Shown piece after piece: positions 10,034-46,713 of a DNA stretch of 52,020 nucleotides. Made by a program: the position numbers and the translations under genes. Location of the stretch: positions 1 to 52,020 of IMG/VR virus record IMGVR_UViG_3300034375_010259; one strand, given 5' to 3'. Position 1 is the stretch's first letter. Each line of letters starts with the position of its first letter. Under the pieces are notes generated by a model. It was not told where the DNA came from. It saw only the letters and a program-made list of their open reading frames with translations, and made no database searches. Source of the stretch: a virus.

Positions 10034-10720
10034 ATGGCAATTACATTAGCAGAACTAAAAACTCAAGCCCGTCAAATGGCTGACATGGAACAAAGTCAAT
10101 TTGTTACCGACGCTGAACTAACTAACTACATAAATTTTGCAATCGCAGAACTACATGACCTCCTAGTACAAACATACGGATCTGATTACTTTTTAGAATC
10201 CGTCGAAGGCACTACCACATCCGGAACAGCCGACTACGCACTTCCAGCAGACTTCTACAAACTACGAGGCATTGACGTAAGATTAAACGGAACCGACTGG
10301 TTCACAGTACCTCCATTTAATTTTAACGAAAGAAATAAATATGAAAGATTTGGAAGCTGGACACTTTTAGGAATATCAAATATAAGATACCGAGTAATGG
10401 GAGGCAATTTAAAACTCACTCCTACGCCAGATAGCAACGTAGACTACAGACTATGGTACATTCCAGTAGCTTCAAAACTTTCAGCAGATACAGACTCTTT
10501 AAATGATGTTAATCAATACTCCGATTACGTAATAGTAACCGCAGCTATGAAAATGCGACACAAAGAAGAATCTGACATAAGAGCATTAGCAGCCGAACGC
10601 GGTCGCATAGTTGAAAGAATTGAACAAGCAGCCCAAAACCGTGACGCTGGGCAATCTGAGCAAATAACTGACATTTACGCCGATAACACTGATTACATAT
10701 TCTATACATCGGATAGCTAA
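10034..10720 (+). CDS. Tail tubular protein A (T7 gp11-like head-tail adaptor)
   Basis: A 228-residue protein. Typical features: a helical N-terminus (ELTNYINFAIAELHDLL), then DYALPADFYKLRGIDV, then LKLTPTPDSNVDYRLWYIP, then a helical C-terminus. This is the adaptor ring between portal and nozzle in T7-type tails, and it sits a few genes before tube B as usual. Confidence 0.85.
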   Translation: MAITLAELKTQARQMADMEQSQFVTDAELTNYINFAIAELHDLLVQTYGSDYFLESVEGTTTSGTADYALPADFYKLRGIDVRLNGTDWFTVPPFNFNERNKYERFGSWTLLGISNIRYRVMGGNLKLTPTPDSNVDYRLWYIPVASKLSADTDSLNDVNQYSDYVIVTAAMKMRHKEESDIRALAAERGRIVERIEQAAQNRDAGQSEQITDIYADNTDYIFYTSDS

Positions 10721-23164: not shown

Positions 23165-23677
23165 ATGGCAGCAGTCATATTTAACGGCGCAGCAGTAAAA
23201 GCCTTAAAAGACATCATAAGACTTAAAGCTGGAATTGAAATAATTACCAATGATTCTGACGATCCAACACTAGTAGCAAAAAACGCTCCAGCATCAAGCC
23301 TATACCTAAGACAGGGAACTGGAGAAGTCTATGTAAAAACCGACGCCGGATCCTCCACAAACTGGAATCTTTTTACAACATCCACAGCGCCTCCTATTTT
23401 TGACGTATCTTCCATATCAACTAACACTAATGCAGTCAGTGGAGCCACATATTTAGTAGACGTATCTGGCGGAGCAGTGACAGTAACTTTACCAGCACCA
23501 GCAGTAGATGCTTTTGTTCGTGTAAAAGATAGCAGCGGATCTGCAAACACAAACAACATTACAGTAGCTCGTAACGGATCTGAATCAATCGACGGAGTTG
23601 CTGGAAACTTTACGTTAGATTCCAACTATGAATCAGCAGTATTTGTAAGTGATGGCACTGATTGGTGGAGACTATGA
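23165..23677 (+). CDS. Small fibre/appendage protein
   Basis: A 170-residue protein. The N-terminal 70 residues include AGIEIITNDSDDP and SLYLRQGTGEVYVKTDAGSS, a common N-terminal piece of phage fibre proteins. The C-terminal 80 residues (AVTVTLPAPAVDAFVRVKD ... ESIDGVAGNFTLDSNY ... SDGTDWWRL) are a second copy of the domain ending the protein at 11047-11703. AAGGAG precedes the ATG, and its stop overlaps the homing endonuclease start. Confidence 0.6.
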   Translation: MAAVIFNGAAVKALKDIIRLKAGIEIITNDSDDPTLVAKNAPASSLYLRQGTGEVYVKTDAGSSTNWNLFTTSTAPPIFDVSSISTNTNAVSGATYLVDVSGGAVTVTLPAPAVDAFVRVKDSSGSANTNNITVARNGSESIDGVAGNFTLDSNYESAVFVSDGTDWWRL

Positions 23678-24291
23678 GTAATTATTATGTATACGCTCAT
23701 TATACAAAGACAACCAAAGAGTTGTTTTATATAGGAAAGGGGAAGAATAATCGAGCTTATAGCGAGCAAGGAAGGTCGAACTATTGGAAAAGAGTAGTAA
23801 AAAAACACGGACTGGAGGTCATAATTCTTATAGATGAATTAGAAAGTAAAGAAGCCGACAACCTGGAAATAATAGCAATAAGCTTACATTCCCCACGATG
23901 CAATTTTACAAAAGGCGGTACTGGAGGAAACACTACAGAAAAATATAATGAAATAAGAATGGCGGAGTATAAAAAAAAGTGTAGTAAATCTAAAAAAGAT
24001 TGGTGGAATTCCAAGGACGAAAACTTTAAAAAAGAGCATACTAAACCAGCCAATCGAGCAGTTTCGAAGATGTGGAAGAACATGGACCCAGAGCAAAAAA
24101 GTAACGAACAAAAAAGACGAAATTCTTTGAAAAAGAGAAAAAAAGTAAAATGCTTAAACACTAATAAAATATATAATACAGTAGAGGAAGCGGCTAAAGA
24201 TTTAAAAATATCATATAAACAAGGCATTTACAATCAAATAAACGGATATAAAAAACATATACAAGGATATAAATTTACTTACGTCCTATAG
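23674..24291 (+). CDS. GIY-YIG homing endonuclease
   Basis: A 205-residue free-standing homing endonuclease. The ATG at 23674 overlaps the previous stop (ATGA); the frame is open to a TTG at 23662 but the family start is MSNYYVYAHY. Motifs: YVYAHY (GIY equivalent, residues 5-10), FYIGKGKNNRA (YIG plus the catalytic Arg27) and a modular DNA-binding C-terminus with a NUMOD-like helix-turn-helix (IYNTVEEAAKDLKISYKQG). The coding style is A/T-richer than the flanking fibre genes. It is wedged between two fibre genes with no interrupted gene around it, so it moves by intergenic homing. Confidence 0.85.
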   Translation: MSNYYVYAHYTKTTKELFYIGKGKNNRAYSEQGRSNYWKRVVKKHGLEVIILIDELESKEADNLEIIAISLHSPRCNFTKGGTGGNTTEKYNEIRMAEYKKKCSKSKKDWWNSKDENFKKEHTKPANRAVSKMWKNMDPEQKSNEQKRRNSLKKRKKVKCLNTNKIYNTVEEAAKDLKISYKQGIYNQINGYKKHIQGYKFTYVL

Positions 24292-24345
24292 AAGTTTTTC
24301 TACATGGTGTAAAAAACCACAGGATGTAAAAACCAGGAGGCAGTT

Positions 24346-26487
24346 ATTAGCTACATTGGAAAGAACCCAAAACTAAACACAAACACATTCACCCCACAAT
24401 CAGCCGATCCCAGTAATCCCGCTGACGGAATGGTCTTCATGTCAGACGGTACTTCTAGACCAGAAGGTTTATGGCGATATGACGCATCTGCAACGGCATG
24501 GATTCAGGTAGAAAACGACGGCTCGGCAGGGATCAATTTCGTTGACAACGATGATTTCGAAACTGACACTACAGGATATGCAACATATGCGGACGCCGCT
24601 GGAGTAAACGCAGTAGACGGAACTGGCGGAGTTGCAACAACTACCTTTACTCGAAACACTACCACTCCCCTCAGAGGAACTGGCGACGGTCTTATAACTA
24701 AAGATGCTGCCAACCGACAAGGCGAAGGTGTTTCATATGACTTCACAATCGACGAAGCTGATAAAGCTTCAATGCTTAAAATCGCATTTGACTATAAAAC
24801 TAGCACCGCCTATGCTGACGGAGACATTAGAGTTCAAATCTACGATGTCACCAACACTAATTTAATTCGCATAGCTCCTGAGGATTTAGCTGCCAATGAA
24901 GTAAATGGAAAGTTTTTCTCAAGCTTCCAGGCTGCTGCTGACAGTACTTCTTATAGATTAATTTTACATATATCTTCCACCAATGCTTCAGCATATACGG
25001 TTAATATCGATAATGTTGAGGTAACTCCGGCTGTCAGTTCAAGGTATACTCCGGTTTCGGATAGTAGAACTCAGAACACTATCACTATTGAGGGTGTAAC
25101 TACTGATCCTACATTTGGAACAATATCTAAACAAGACATTCTTTATCGTAGAGTGGGTGATCGATTAGAAGCAACCTATAGTTTTGATACTGATGGTACT
25201 GGATCTAGCGCAGGTTCGGGAACCTATTTAATAAGCCTACCGACAGGTTTAAGTTTCGACTCTGATAAAGTTACATATTCAACTTCTGAGAATGAATTTA
25301 ATCCCCATACAAATATAGGATTTGGTAATTTATATAATCAAGCTGCCGGCGGTATTCACGGGATGGTTATGGCTGTCCCTTATGATGATACCAGATTTTA
25401 CTTAGTATCCTCTTCTGTTGTTACCGACGCTGGCGCAGCTTCCTCTGAAACCGCAGATACTTGGGGTAGTGCATCCGCTCACAATGCTACAACACGACCA
25501 TCGTTTGTTCTTCAGATTAATGTTCCAATTAAAGGCTGGTCAACTGGACTCAGTGTTGAGGAATCTTTAAGTGGTAGAATTATTGCTGCTTCGATTCAGG
25601 GCACCGACTCCAACACCGTTGGGGCTGGCACCGCTGAATTTGTTGGATACCAAACAACTCTCTTTGATACACACGGAGGTTTTACCATTGGATCAACCGA
25701 TCCCACTGAATCCAATTCCACATATTATACAATTCCAGAAACGGGCTATTATCAAGTTGATGCTGGGATTGCTTTCGCTGCTTCAACTGGATGGACTTCT
25801 AATGCTTCGGCAGAAATTTATATCATAAAAAATGGATCTACTGTACTCAGACGTAGAGGACATCTTGAGAACAATACAACCAGTCACCCCGTCCAAACAC
25901 AAATCTCTGATACCTTTTATCTTGAAAAAGGCGACACCGTTTCAGTTAAGGCTTACAATGGAACCGCTGGCGCATTGGGATTTTACACACCTGTTCCAAG
26001 AGATACCTATTTCTCAATTGCTAAAGTTCAAGCACCGAGCGAAGTTTTACCTAGTGAGAAAATTTATGCGACTTACTCCCATAATGCCGCGACATCATTA
26101 ACTGCGGCAACTAATACAACTATTCCATATAATACAAAAGAAACGGATTCTCATAACTCGGTTTCGTCGGGCGTCTTTACGGCACCTAGGTCAGGTATGT
26201 TTTATTACTCATTTACGACCTATTTTGCAACTAACTCATGGGCTGCGGATAAAAATATAGATACTGTAGTTTATAAAAACGGAAATGGGACTACTCAGGT
26301 GCAGACTAGCAGGTGGATTTCCGGTGGATTAGCTTCTAATACTATACAAGTTCCAATTTTATCCGGTTTAGTTTATCTAACAAAAGGCGAAACCTTAGAA
26401 TTTACCGTGAATCATGATAACGGAGGAGGTAACACAACAGGAACTGATGCTACAAGAAATAAAATGGTTATATACTCTATAGATTAA
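24346..26487 (+). CDS. Probable receptor-binding tail fibre, ATT start, tandem C1q-like domains
   Basis: A 713-residue protein if started at ATT 24346, five bases after a perfect AGGAGG (24335-24340). The frame has a stop at 24310 and no ATG/GTG/TTG before 24430, yet the upstream codons read SYIGKNPKLNTNTFTPQ, a typical fibre N-terminus. Domains: N-terminal attachment (1-60), a carbohydrate-module-like sandwich (65-230), a middle beta region, then two C1q/TNF-like jelly rolls (about 425-570 and 580-713), each with the GYYQV or GMFYYSF type strand. Codon use changes to T-rich third positions after about 25000, suggesting acquisition of the distal part. If ATT is not used, the protein would start at 24430 without its anchor. 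Confidence 0.7.
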   Translation: MSYIGKNPKLNTNTFTPQSADPSNPADGMVFMSDGTSRPEGLWRYDASATAWIQVENDGSAGINFVDNDDFETDTTGYATYADAAGVNAVDGTGGVATTTFTRNTTTPLRGTGDGLITKDAANRQGEGVSYDFTIDEADKASMLKIAFDYKTSTAYADGDIRVQIYDVTNTNLIRIAPEDLAANEVNGKFFSSFQAAADSTSYRLILHISSTNASAYTVNIDNVEVTPAVSSRYTPVSDSRTQNTITIEGVTTDPTFGTISKQDILYRRVGDRLEATYSFDTDGTGSSAGSGTYLISLPTGLSFDSDKVTYSTSENEFNPHTNIGFGNLYNQAAGGIHGMVMAVPYDDTRFYLVSSSVVTDAGAASSETADTWGSASAHNATTRPSFVLQINVPIKGWSTGLSVEESLSGRIIAASIQGTDSNTVGAGTAEFVGYQTTLFDTHGGFTIGSTDPTESNSTYYTIPETGYYQVDAGIAFAASTGWTSNASAEIYIIKNGSTVLRRRGHLENNTTSHPVQTQISDTFYLEKGDTVSVKAYNGTAGALGFYTPVPRDTYFSIAKVQAPSEVLPSEKIYATYSHNAATSLTAATNTTIPYNTKETDSHNSVSSGVFTAPRSGMFYYSFTTYFATNSWAADKNIDTVVYKNGNGTTQVQTSRWISGGLASNTIQVPILSGLVYLTKGETLEFTVNHDNGGGNTTGTDATRNKMVIYSID

Positions 26488-28366: not shown

Positions 28367-28858
28367 ATGAAATTTTGTAGAATTTGTAATATAGAAAAAC
28401 CATTAATAAAATTTGCGACAAGAAAATCAGCAAAAGATGGAAGAAGAAACGAGTGTAAATTATGTACGAATAAAAAACATAAAATGTACAGAGACACTCC
28501 TGAGCAAAAGAAAAAAAAGAAAGAGCGTAGAAAAAAAACATATTGCGTTGAGTATTATAGAATTTACAGGAAAAATAATATACAAAAAATAAGAAAATCA
28601 GCAAACAAATGGGCAAAAAACAACAAAGAATATAGATCTCATATGCAGAAAAAAAGAGAAGTTTTAAAAAGACAATCTTCTTTATATGGATACGAAGATG
28701 AAATTAAAAACATATATATAAACAGACCTCCAGGGCACCACGTAGATCACATAATACCATTAAACCACAAAGACGTGTGTAGACTGCACGTCCCGTGGAA
28801 CTTACAATATTTACCAGCAATAGAAAATTTAAAAAAGAGTAATAAACTATGTCAATAG
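28367..28858 (+). CDS. HNH homing endonuclease
   Basis: A 163-residue protein. The N-terminus has two CxxC pairs (CRIC at 4-7, CKLC at 30-33) for a structural zinc, the middle is very K/R-rich, and the C-terminus carries the HNH core: HVDHIIPL (125-132), NLQYL with Asn145, and N-x-x-K-x-x-K. It has no clear ribosome site, follows a terminator and overlaps the next gene start by 10 bases. Free-standing mobile endonuclease, in a clearly A-richer coding style. Confidence 0.85.
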   Translation: MKFCRICNIEKPLIKFATRKSAKDGRRNECKLCTNKKHKMYRDTPEQKKKKKERRKKTYCVEYYRIYRKNNIQKIRKSANKWAKNNKEYRSHMQKKREVLKRQSSLYGYEDEIKNIYINRPPGHHVDHIIPLNHKDVCRLHVPWNLQYLPAIENLKKSNKLCQ

Positions 28859-29436: not shown

Positions 29437-30119
29437 GTAAAATCCTAAAAAACACCACTATCTCAGACATAGAACTATCCACATTAGCCAGAACAATTCC
29501 AGCCTCTGGACAAATAACCATACCAGTAGGAGATTACCTTCTATTAGGATCAGAAGACTCCATAACCGAACTAACCCCCCTAATAAACTCCGGAGATATT
29601 GTAATAAACGATGGTTCAAATGATCTTTCTTCGGACGAGGCAATAGAATACGCACAATACCCAGACCAGGCTTCAAATATAAGATTCACTCCCACCTCAA
29701 GCATAGCCGAAATTAATGTACAAGATGCCATAGGATCCGGAGTCAATACCGCACTAAACACTCCTCGATACGGAATACCACTAATTTATAATGGAGTTGT
29801 AAGTAACAATGAATTTATAGGATATTCAAATCTACTACCTGGAGATGAGACTCCAATTATCATACCAGTAGACTCAGAAATAACAGGATATACTTTTAGT
29901 AATTCCAGAGCAGACGCAAGCTACACAATAGAACTAAGAAAGAACTCAGAAACCGCTACACCATTTAACACTACTTCAAAAATAACAACAAAAAACTTCA
30001 TTCAATCAGAATTATCCGAAGAATTTGCCGCCGGCGATTCTATATTTGTAAAGTATTTAGATGATGGCGTAAACGCTTCGGACGTTGGAATATTTTTAAC
30101 ATTTAAAGCAATTTTATAG
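29433..30119 (+). CDS. Tail/appendage protein
   Basis: A 228-residue protein starting at ATG 29433, which overlaps the previous stop; the frame is open further to a TTG. N-terminus MSKILKNTTISDIELS and PASGQITIPVGDYLLLGSED resemble neck or baseplate proteins in similar clusters. The C-terminal half (ITGYTFSNSRADASYTIELR) is a beta-sandwich. No catalytic motif. Confidence 0.5.
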   Translation: MSKILKNTTISDIELSTLARTIPASGQITIPVGDYLLLGSEDSITELTPLINSGDIVINDGSNDLSSDEAIEYAQYPDQASNIRFTPTSSIAEINVQDAIGSGVNTALNTPRYGIPLIYNGVVSNNEFIGYSNLLPGDETPIIIPVDSEITGYTFSNSRADASYTIELRKNSETATPFNTTSKITTKNFIQSELSEEFAAGDSIFVKYLDDGVNASDVGIFLTFKAIL

Positions 30120-30130
30120 GAGGCAATTAA

Positions 30131-30835
30131 GTGAGCATATATATAAAAAACACCGACTCTATTACAAGAACCTGGCATGGAAAACAACTCAATGTAAATG
30201 AATATCATTTAATTCAACCATCATCAGAAGTATCATGGGCAAACAATGAACAACTTCTCATAGACATAGCAAACGGAAAAGCCACAGTAGCTAAGGACGA
30301 TTCTGGTTCTAAAGATATTACAAACATAAATGAAGCTATAAACTACTTAAAAAACAACCTACCCACTCAAGTAAAAACCATTGCGGTAAATGAACCAGAT
30401 GGAAAAAGGGCTAGGTTAGTGGGAGTAATACCAGGAACCACAATTGCCACGGCAAATACCACAACCTCCCATGATTACTTAATTCCACAACTACAATACG
30501 AAGGACAAAACGTAAATTCTATCTTCGACGGAATTCAATACTTCGTAAAAGACTCTGAAATGGGGGACAAAATGACTTTCCAAGTAGTTGACAAAGACGG
30601 ATTCGGAGTGTTAGCAGGATGGTATGACCAAGCCACTTTCGATGCTATGGGAAATCTATATGTAGTAGAAGAATTTGGAAAAGACTGGAACATCGCTCCC
30701 AATCATCTTGAAAACATTGTACTTTATAAAGCCCGGCTAATAAGTGGACTATATCTGCGAGTAAATTACACCAATGTCCACGCAACAAAAGACACAAATT
30801 TTTTTATAAACCTCTTCCGACACATCGAGTCGTAA
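30131..30835 (+). CDS. Tail/appendage protein
   Basis: A 234-residue protein with a GTG start 7 bases after AGGAGG. N-terminus SIYIKNTDSITRTWHGKQLN has the same organisation as the previous protein, and a beta sandwich follows (MGDKMTFQVVDKDGFGVL). Probably a virion component of the appendage complex. No enzyme motif seen. Confidence 0.5.
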   Translation: MSIYIKNTDSITRTWHGKQLNVNEYHLIQPSSEVSWANNEQLLIDIANGKATVAKDDSGSKDITNINEAINYLKNNLPTQVKTIAVNEPDGKRARLVGVIPGTTIATANTTTSHDYLIPQLQYEGQNVNSIFDGIQYFVKDSEMGDKMTFQVVDKDGFGVLAGWYDQATFDAMGNLYVVEEFGKDWNIAPNHLENIVLYKARLISGLYLRVNYTNVHATKDTNFFINLFRHIES

Positions 30836-44761: not shown

Positions 44762-45061
44762 TTAAACAGATTTAAGTGAACACCATTTCAAATGATGATT
44801 TGGAAACGAAGTATGCTTGGCTGCGCAATCGCAATTTTTCGGTATTGGTGGCGGCTCATTGACGACATCCTTATTTATAAACATCCAATAATAACTAGAG
44901 TCGTATGTCATCTCTCTAAAAGCGTATAAATCGCTTAAAATAGTGACCATCTTCCCGTCAACATGAATTACCTTACCTTTATCCATATTACTTGCGCCGG
45001 TATATATTTCTATTTCACATCCAATCAGGGATTTATTTACGGTATGTATAAATTGGTTCAT
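44762..45061 (-). CDS. Zn-motif protein with SH3-like N-terminus
   Basis: A 99-residue protein from the ATG at 45061 (GAGAATTGTTG leader; TTG starts just upstream less likely). DKGKVIHVDGKMVTI resembles an SH3/KOW-type strand pair. The end carries NCDC and HLKWC, a CxC...HxxWC zinc site shared with the protein at 49786-50196. The gene begins inside the end of the ankyrin gene. Function unknown. Confidence 0.55.
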   Translation of the reverse strand: MNQFIHTVNKSLIGCEIEIYTGASNMDKGKVIHVDGKMVTILSDLYAFREMTYDSSYYWMFINKDVVNEPPPIPKNCDCAAKHTSFPNHHLKWCSLKSV

Positions 45062-45524
45062 CAACAATTCTCCTTAGTTTTGCGTCTTTGAGTAATTTTA
45101 CGATTTCGGTATGTTTCATTACGAGAAGCCCATTTAATGCTTGATCATTCTTAGCATGAATATTAGCTCCATGTTCTAATAACAGTTTTACGATTTCAGT
45201 ATGTCCATAATCAGAAGCCAATCTTAATGCTTCATCATTCCAAGCATGAACATTAGCTTCTTTTTCCAATAACAGTTTTACAGTTTTAGTATGACCATTT
45301 TTAGAAGCTCGTCTTAATGCTTGATCATTCTCAGCATGAACGTCAGCACCATAGTCTAATAACAGTTTTACGATTTCAGTACGTCCATTACGAGAAGCCC
45401 ATCTTAATACATAATCATTCCCAGCATGAACGTCAGCACCATGTTCTAATAACAATTTTACTATTTCAATGTGACCAAAATAAGAAGCCCATGTTAATGC
45501 TTGATTTAATTGGTTTTGTGTCAT
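45033..45524 (-). CDS. Ankyrin-repeat protein, 30-residue repeats
   Basis: A 163-residue protein with five ankyrin repeats, each of 30 rather than 33 residues and of the form NDxALRxASxxGHTEIVKLLL followed by GADVHA. DNA units are exactly 90 bp apart. The ATG at 45524 sits behind GAGGAG. The style closely resembles ankyrin proteins of giant viruses. No signal peptide. It probably binds a host or phage protein. Confidence 0.8.
   Translation of the reverse strand: MTQNQLNQALTWASYFGHIEIVKLLLEHGADVHAGNDYVLRWASRNGRTEIVKLLLDYGADVHAENDQALRRASKNGHTKTVKLLLEKEANVHAWNDEALRLASDYGHTEIVKLLLEHGANIHAKNDQALNGLLVMKHTEIVKLLKDAKLRRIVDEPIYTYRK
45090..45524 (-). repeat. 90-bp ankyrin tandem repeats
   Basis: The word AACAGTTTTA (or AACAATTTTA) recurs at 45181, 45271, 45361 and 45451, exactly 90 bp apart, with high DNA similarity between units. 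This suggests recent duplication and possible copy-number change. Confidence 0.9.
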
Positions 45525-45604
45525 CAACAATTCTCCTCAATGTTGCGTCTTCTTTTCCGGGCAAAATTATTACGTTCTAGGTACTCTATAAAATCTTTTT
45601 TCAT
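45524..45604 (-). CDS. 26-residue leader peptide coupled to the ankyrin gene
   Basis: ATG 45604 opens a 26-codon frame starting MKKDFIEYLERNNF and ending in a basic/acidic tail (RKRRRNIEENC). Its TGA overlaps the ankyrin ATG (TGATG), so ribosomes could reinitiate. AAGG lies 9 bases upstream. Could be a real leader peptide or chance. Confidence 0.4.
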   Translation of the reverse strand: MKKDFIEYLERNNFARKRRRNIEENC

Positions 45605-45676: not shown

Positions 45677-46693
45677 TTATTTCCTTAAAGTTTTGACCAT
45701 TTCTTCTGCAATTCTTTCAATAACTGGAACAGCTACGGAATTTCCAAATTGCTTATAAGCTTGTGTATCTGATACAGGTATTATAAAACTTTCAGGAAAT
45801 CCTTGTAATCTAGCGCATTCTCTGGGCGTTAATTTCCTAGGTCTTTTATTAATATCTGATTGATCTATTAAAATTTCGCTACCATCTTTTCCATACCTAG
45901 CACTAATAGTATTCGTGTACTCAGAATCTTTATTGAATAAAGAATATCCAAACCCATTGCCCTTCTGTTTATGACTCTCTTTTCTTCTTTGATGACCATT
46001 CCATAGCTTTTCAGAGAGAGTGTATTTATCATCCACATTTTGCTCTAAAATATTTCCAACTTTTGTAGGGGTTTTACAAGGCTCAGGAAAGTTAAAATTA
46101 TCATTAAAATTGAAATTTAAAGGAAATTGACTCTTATCAAATCCAATAATATAAATTCTTTCCCTATTTTGTGGTACTCCGAAGTCAGCAGCTCTTAGTA
46201 CTTTAAATTCAACATGATAATTTAACATTGTGAGAATTTCAAGGATGGTATTTAAAGTCTTTCCTTTATTGTGACCTTTTAATTGTTTCACATTTTCTAG
46301 TAAAAATGCCTTTGGTCTTTTATGTTTTATAATGTCTTGGATATAAAAAAATAGTGTTCCTCTAGTATCTTCAAATCCTTTTTTTAATCCTGCTTGAGAA
46401 AATGGCTGACACGGAAATCCTGCCAGTAAAATGTCGTGGTTAGGTATTTCCTCCATAGATATCTTTGTTATGTCTCCATGAGGCATTTTTCCATAATTAG
46501 CCTTATAAGTCTCTTGAGCAAATTTATCCCATTCAGATGTAAATACACATAATCCTTTATGTTTTTCAAAGCCTAATCTCATTCCACCTATACCAGCAAA
46601 AAGATCAATAAATGAATAATTATTGTCAATGTTAGCATTAGCACCTTTTTCAGAGGATCGTTTTAATGCTTTATTTAATTCTTTTTGTGTCAT
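45677..46693 (-). CDS. dcm: DNA cytosine-5 methyltransferase with ankyrin-derived N-terminus
   Basis: A 338-residue m5C methyltransferase. Motif I FIDLFAGIGGMRLGFE (28-43), motif IV GFPCQPFSQAG with Cys95, motif VI LLENVK, motif VIII QNRERIYIIGF, motif X GNSVAVPVI near the C-terminus; all catalytic motifs are present. Residues 1-25 (MTQKELNKALKRSSEKGANA) are not part of the family and match the start of the ankyrin protein next door. No partner restriction enzyme is seen, so it probably protects phage DNA. The recognition site cannot be told. Confidence 0.85.
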   Translation of the reverse strand: MTQKELNKALKRSSEKGANANIDNNYSFIDLFAGIGGMRLGFEKHKGLCVFTSEWDKFAQETYKANYGKMPHGDITKISMEEIPNHDILLAGFPCQPFSQAGLKKGFEDTRGTLFFYIQDIIKHKRPKAFLLENVKQLKGHNKGKTLNTILEILTMLNYHVEFKVLRAADFGVPQNRERIYIIGFDKSQFPLNFNFNDNFNFPEPCKTPTKVGNILEQNVDDKYTLSEKLWNGHQRRKESHKQKGNGFGYSLFNKDSEYTNTISARYGKDGSEILIDQSDINKRPRKLTPRECARLQGFPESFIIPVSDTQAYKQFGNSVAVPVIERIAEEMVKTLRK

Positions 46694-46713
46694 CAACAAT
46701 TCTCCTCAGTGAT

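Follow-up and report, generated by a model that had tools for sequence, protein, structure and literature searches.

A probable ATT start codon in a phage fibre-like gene lying behind a GIY-YIG homing endonuclease gene

ATT is a very rare start codon, and the genes most readily compared with the one described here are the cellular genes beginning at AUU or AUA, namely infC and pcnB of Escherichia coli and cvfC1 and ccpN of Staphylococcus aureus. A natural AUU start behind a strong Shine-Dalgarno sequence is described for infC (PMC5472188), while AUU starts in S. aureus come with strong or extended Shine-Dalgarno sequences and give about one tenth of the expression obtained with AUG (PMC13009471). 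The fibre-like gene of the viral contig analysed here (the window, meaning the whole stretch of 52,020 nucleotides) shares common aspects with these genes. No canonical in-frame start lies upstream of its conserved N-terminal segment, its near-cognate codon stands behind a strong and normally spaced Shine-Dalgarno sequence, and this codon is common to more than one genome, the window and a second contig (L014). On other aspects it differs, since the AUU/AUA genes are cellular regulators whereas this is a phage structural gene, and since its relatives use ATG, so that ATT is a derived change.

The second comparison is with free-standing GIY-YIG homing endonuclease genes (HEGs), the seg genes of bacteriophage T4 and their relatives. 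Like them, the window HEG combines a GIY-YIG catalytic domain, whose core positions aligned, with a NUMOD-like DNA-binding tail; it matches phrog_314 (E 7e-15) as well as PF22083 and NUMOD1, with Pfam scores below the gathering scores. Also like them, it lies between two structural genes of the same orientation and is patchily distributed, being inserted between genes and missing from HEG-less relatives. Unlike the seg genes, its kind of insertion goes with a changed start codon of the neighbouring gene in two of three cases, and homing is here putative.

The window carries a podovirus-like set of structural and replication genes, including those for the terminase, portal, major head protein, internal virion protein and DNA polymerase. 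The features of the locus are collected in Table 1. Orthologues of the upstream structural gene were found in eight other contigs (L012, L014, L015, L016, L018, L024, L008 and L105). An earlier note on this DNA had called the downstream gene a fibre gene, a label with which the neighbourhood and the weak C1q-like and PHROG similarity of the C-terminal end agree; the middle domain is common to other phage proteins. However, the AlphaFold model was poor (pLDDT 56) and left unused, and no solved structure matched the protein in sequence; the label is reasonable but unproven and the function putative. In another, syntenic contig, a single frame of 1192 amino acids (L005:2219-5797) begins like the 170-aa gene at 23165 and ends like the fibre, so that both products may be parts of one structure.

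Table 1. Coordinates of the features at the fibre locus of the window.
Feature	Position	Strand	Remarks
Upstream structural gene	23165..23677	+	C-terminal part T4 gp9/10-like (PF07880)
GIY-YIG homing endonuclease gene, NUMOD-like tail	23674..24291	+	ATG at 23674 overlaps upstream stop (ATGA); stop codon 24289-24291
Short stem	24301..24328	+	Weak
In-frame stop TAA	24310..24312	+	Upstream of fibre frame
Shine-Dalgarno AGGAGG	24335..24340	+	Duplex energy -10.3, best of scored forward-strand genes
ATT start codon (probable)	24346..24348	+	ATG position in relatives; ATT also at L014:3001-3003
Fibre-like gene, 713 codons opened by the ATT, weak C1q-like C-terminus	24346..26487	+	
First in-frame ATG, internal Met29 of family	24430..24432	+	Alignment of ATG-starting relatives; Shine-Dalgarno weak, -2.6

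The earlier note had proposed that the fibre starts at an ATT, because a perfect AGGAGG is followed, after the five bases CAGTT, by ATT in frame with AGC TAC ATT GGA AAG AAC CCA AAA CTA (SYIGKNPKL), and because the frame contains neither ATG, GTG nor TTG between the upstream stop and 24430; it had also placed the ATT 54 bases beyond the end of the HEG (24291). All of this is borne out by the sequence. The motif itself, AGGAGG followed by ATT after four to nine bases, nevertheless occurs three times in the whole window, against 3.25 expected by chance; it was rejected as evidence by itself, and the claim consequently rests on the comparison with relatives.

The alignment with relatives lacking the endonuclease, which the earlier note had suggested, places an ATG exactly at the window ATT in seven contigs (L012, L015, L016, L024, L008, L009 and L011), where the same two genes follow each other in unchanged order with 8-105 nt between them. 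A further relative (L018) also starts with ATG, its N-terminus being one residue shorter. These alignments back the idea that the ATT arose from an ATG by mutation. L014, a different metagenome contig of diverged sequence, has AAGGAG, six bases and then ATT at the same codon, and its fibre gene too is without a canonical start upstream of the conserved N-terminus. When all viral contigs were scanned for a Shine-Dalgarno sequence followed by ATH and the fibre N-terminus, L014 was the only fibre-like match; the ATT cases total two among the contigs searched, a scarcity that counts against an ATT start. The fibre N-terminus was not found in any isolate phage, and a search of the bacterial genome collection turned up no relative of use. 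With a conserved start position, a protein conserved from the ATT to 24430 and a second phage sharing the codon, the ATT start is convincing despite the chance-level motif, and it is probably real.

We consider it likely that translation begins at the ATT, that an ancestral ATG was replaced in place, and that the HEG sits before the native leader of the fibre gene, these three elements being taken jointly. The endonuclease gene would have inserted right after the stop of the upstream gene, ahead of that leader, and the initiator tRNA presumably decodes the ATT as formyl-Met. Since a HEG lies just upstream of the ATT in both phages, the codon is perhaps connected with the insertion. The earlier note had suggested that it may be tied to the insertion, and the association stands as a tendency: ATT occurs in two of the three HEG-bearing loci (window and L014) and in none of the HEG-less ones, whether only the eight with the same upstream gene or all of about eleven are counted. 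It is not obligatory, since L105, whose HEG is 52% identical to that of L014 and stands at the same place, starts its fibre with ATG. With Fisher p values of 0.055 or 0.033, uncorrected for relatedness, the link is suggestive.

The L014 endonuclease is also of the GIY-YIG type and lies directly after the upstream gene, just before the fibre, but it belongs to a different subfamily from the window HEG; both match the same broad PHROG, and BLASTP detected no relationship between them. In small trees with modest support, L014 grouped with L105 and L015 while the window fell elsewhere, which favours two independent changes from ATG to ATT. These observations leave room for a cause that would be added to the preferred explanation without replacing it. 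The start codon may lie in or near the GIY-YIG target, so that the change from G to T protects the element from its own product, or the ATT may have hitchhiked by co-conversion of flanking DNA, a process known for phage HEGs (PMC2988022). Two HEG subfamilies would then have invaded the same site, the G would have been lost independently by either route, and a very strong Shine-Dalgarno sequence would have rescued the gene. Self-protection or co-conversion would explain the association and agrees with the ATG of all HEG-less loci. The L105 locus and the modest p values speak against it, however, and insertion alone may already destroy the target; the proposal is a tentative one, and somewhat doubtful. 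The HEG of contig L017, distantly related to that of the window, is followed by a gene that starts with ATG.

Homing-type endonuclease genes have a hot spot in the structural region. At 28367-28858 the window contains a second one, endonuclease VII/HNH-like (phrog_1035). L012 has a partial relative, 57% identical to it, in the corresponding location (10164-10289), and further relatives lie near the fibre region of L018 and L019.

An improbable alternative is that the HEG inserted behind the fibre ATG and took that codon for itself, the fibre gene recruiting ATT in the window and L014 and later ATG in L105. Every HEG does begin right at the upstream stop, and the three HEG-bearing loci all have AGY as the second fibre codon. 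In addition, HEG and fibre share a reading frame, with stops between them, in the window (23674-24348), L014 (2323-3003) and L105 (3725-4432), at distances of 672, 678 and 705 nt, an agreement that may be due to chance (1 in 27). However, the leaders that follow the HEGs, of 54, about 68 and 63 nt, are about as long as those of the nearest HEG-less relatives (53 and 56 nt), and an overlapping start was seen in no HEG-less relative. The L014 leader moreover aligns with that of the HEG-less L012 more closely than do 99.9% of shuffles (this being one of ten comparisons); no significant alignment was obtained between the window and L012 leaders. From the leader lengths and the L014 alignment, the most likely course is that the fibre kept its native start codon and that this mutated where it stood; recruitment of a new one after the insertion is less likely.

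That the true codon is an ATG, misread in sequencing or assembly, is rather unlikely. A single base of a metagenome contig differs here from the family, yet the same ATT in the independent and distant L014 makes a one-off error improbable, and the strongest Shine-Dalgarno sequence stands before this very codon.

Equally unlikely is a fibre now translated from the ATG at 24430, with its first 28 codons dead. This is the first canonical in-frame start and the same Met is present in L014, but a start there would drop the codons upstream of 24430. Between the window and L014, codons 2-28 differ by 6, 5 and 17 changes at codon positions 1, 2 and 3 (pN 0.23 vs pS 0.72), so that the two ATT genes have accumulated many third-position differences while keeping the protein. 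The pattern is one of purifying selection on these codons between the two phages, and the segment is very probably translated. Met29 is furthermore an internal residue in the aligned ATG-starting relatives, and its Shine-Dalgarno sequence is poor, against a very strong one at the ATT.

A reading in which the HEG belongs to an intron, with the true start created by splicing, is hardly credible, and we rejected it. The L014 HEG does show similarity to endonucleases of group I introns (TIGR01453, slightly under the cut-off), but an Rfam intron search of the window and L014 loci gave no match, no group I catalytic core was found, and the HEG frame takes up the whole insert, so that a ribozyme core would not fit.

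Other candidates were also set aside. The stem that the earlier note had drawn at 24301-24328 can indeed be drawn, but this region folds no better than shuffled sequences (z = +1.0) and hairpins are present in most HEG-less leaders too, so that it is not special and was rejected as a regulator. A promoter brought in by the HEG and offset by a weak start was discarded because promoter-like sites were at or below chance level. A tRNA search found no tRNA, and decoding of the ATT by a phage-encoded tRNA was rejected as well.

Translation from the ATT remains odd in one respect, AUU starts being inefficient and thus strange for a structural protein. Of the scored forward-strand genes in the window, the fibre has the strongest Shine-Dalgarno sequence, followed at -10.2 by that of a GTG gene. 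Initiation at the ATT would be weak, and this unusually strong and well-spaced sequence would compensate for it; going by the literature on AUU starts, the ATT would give a lower yield of fibre. We infer that the codon is used in vivo, with reduced expression, after mutation in place. The loss of the G could reflect self-protection or hitchhiking in homing, dosage tuning or relaxed selection, and reinitiation after translation of the HEG is possible as an alternative factor. Genome-wide relaxed initiation was rejected: in the window and the L014 contig, no gene other than the fibre has a strong Shine-Dalgarno sequence with a near-cognate codon well ahead of its first canonical start.

Gene callers limited to ATG, GTG and TTG would clip 28 conserved residues from the window and L014 proteins. 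The locus provides an example of a structural phage gene in which an ATT start has recurred, and a case where a selfish gene may have remodelled the start codon of the gene next to it.

On the side of initiation signals, the AGGAGG site of the GTG gene mentioned above is placed at 30118-30133 in the window, and the two strongest scored sites both precede non-ATG starts. The 16-mer AGGAGAATTGTTGATG, running from a Shine-Dalgarno sequence to a start codon, occurs on the minus strand at 45059-45074, 45522-45537 and 46691-46706, where three neighbouring genes, including that of a DNA methyltransferase, follow it.
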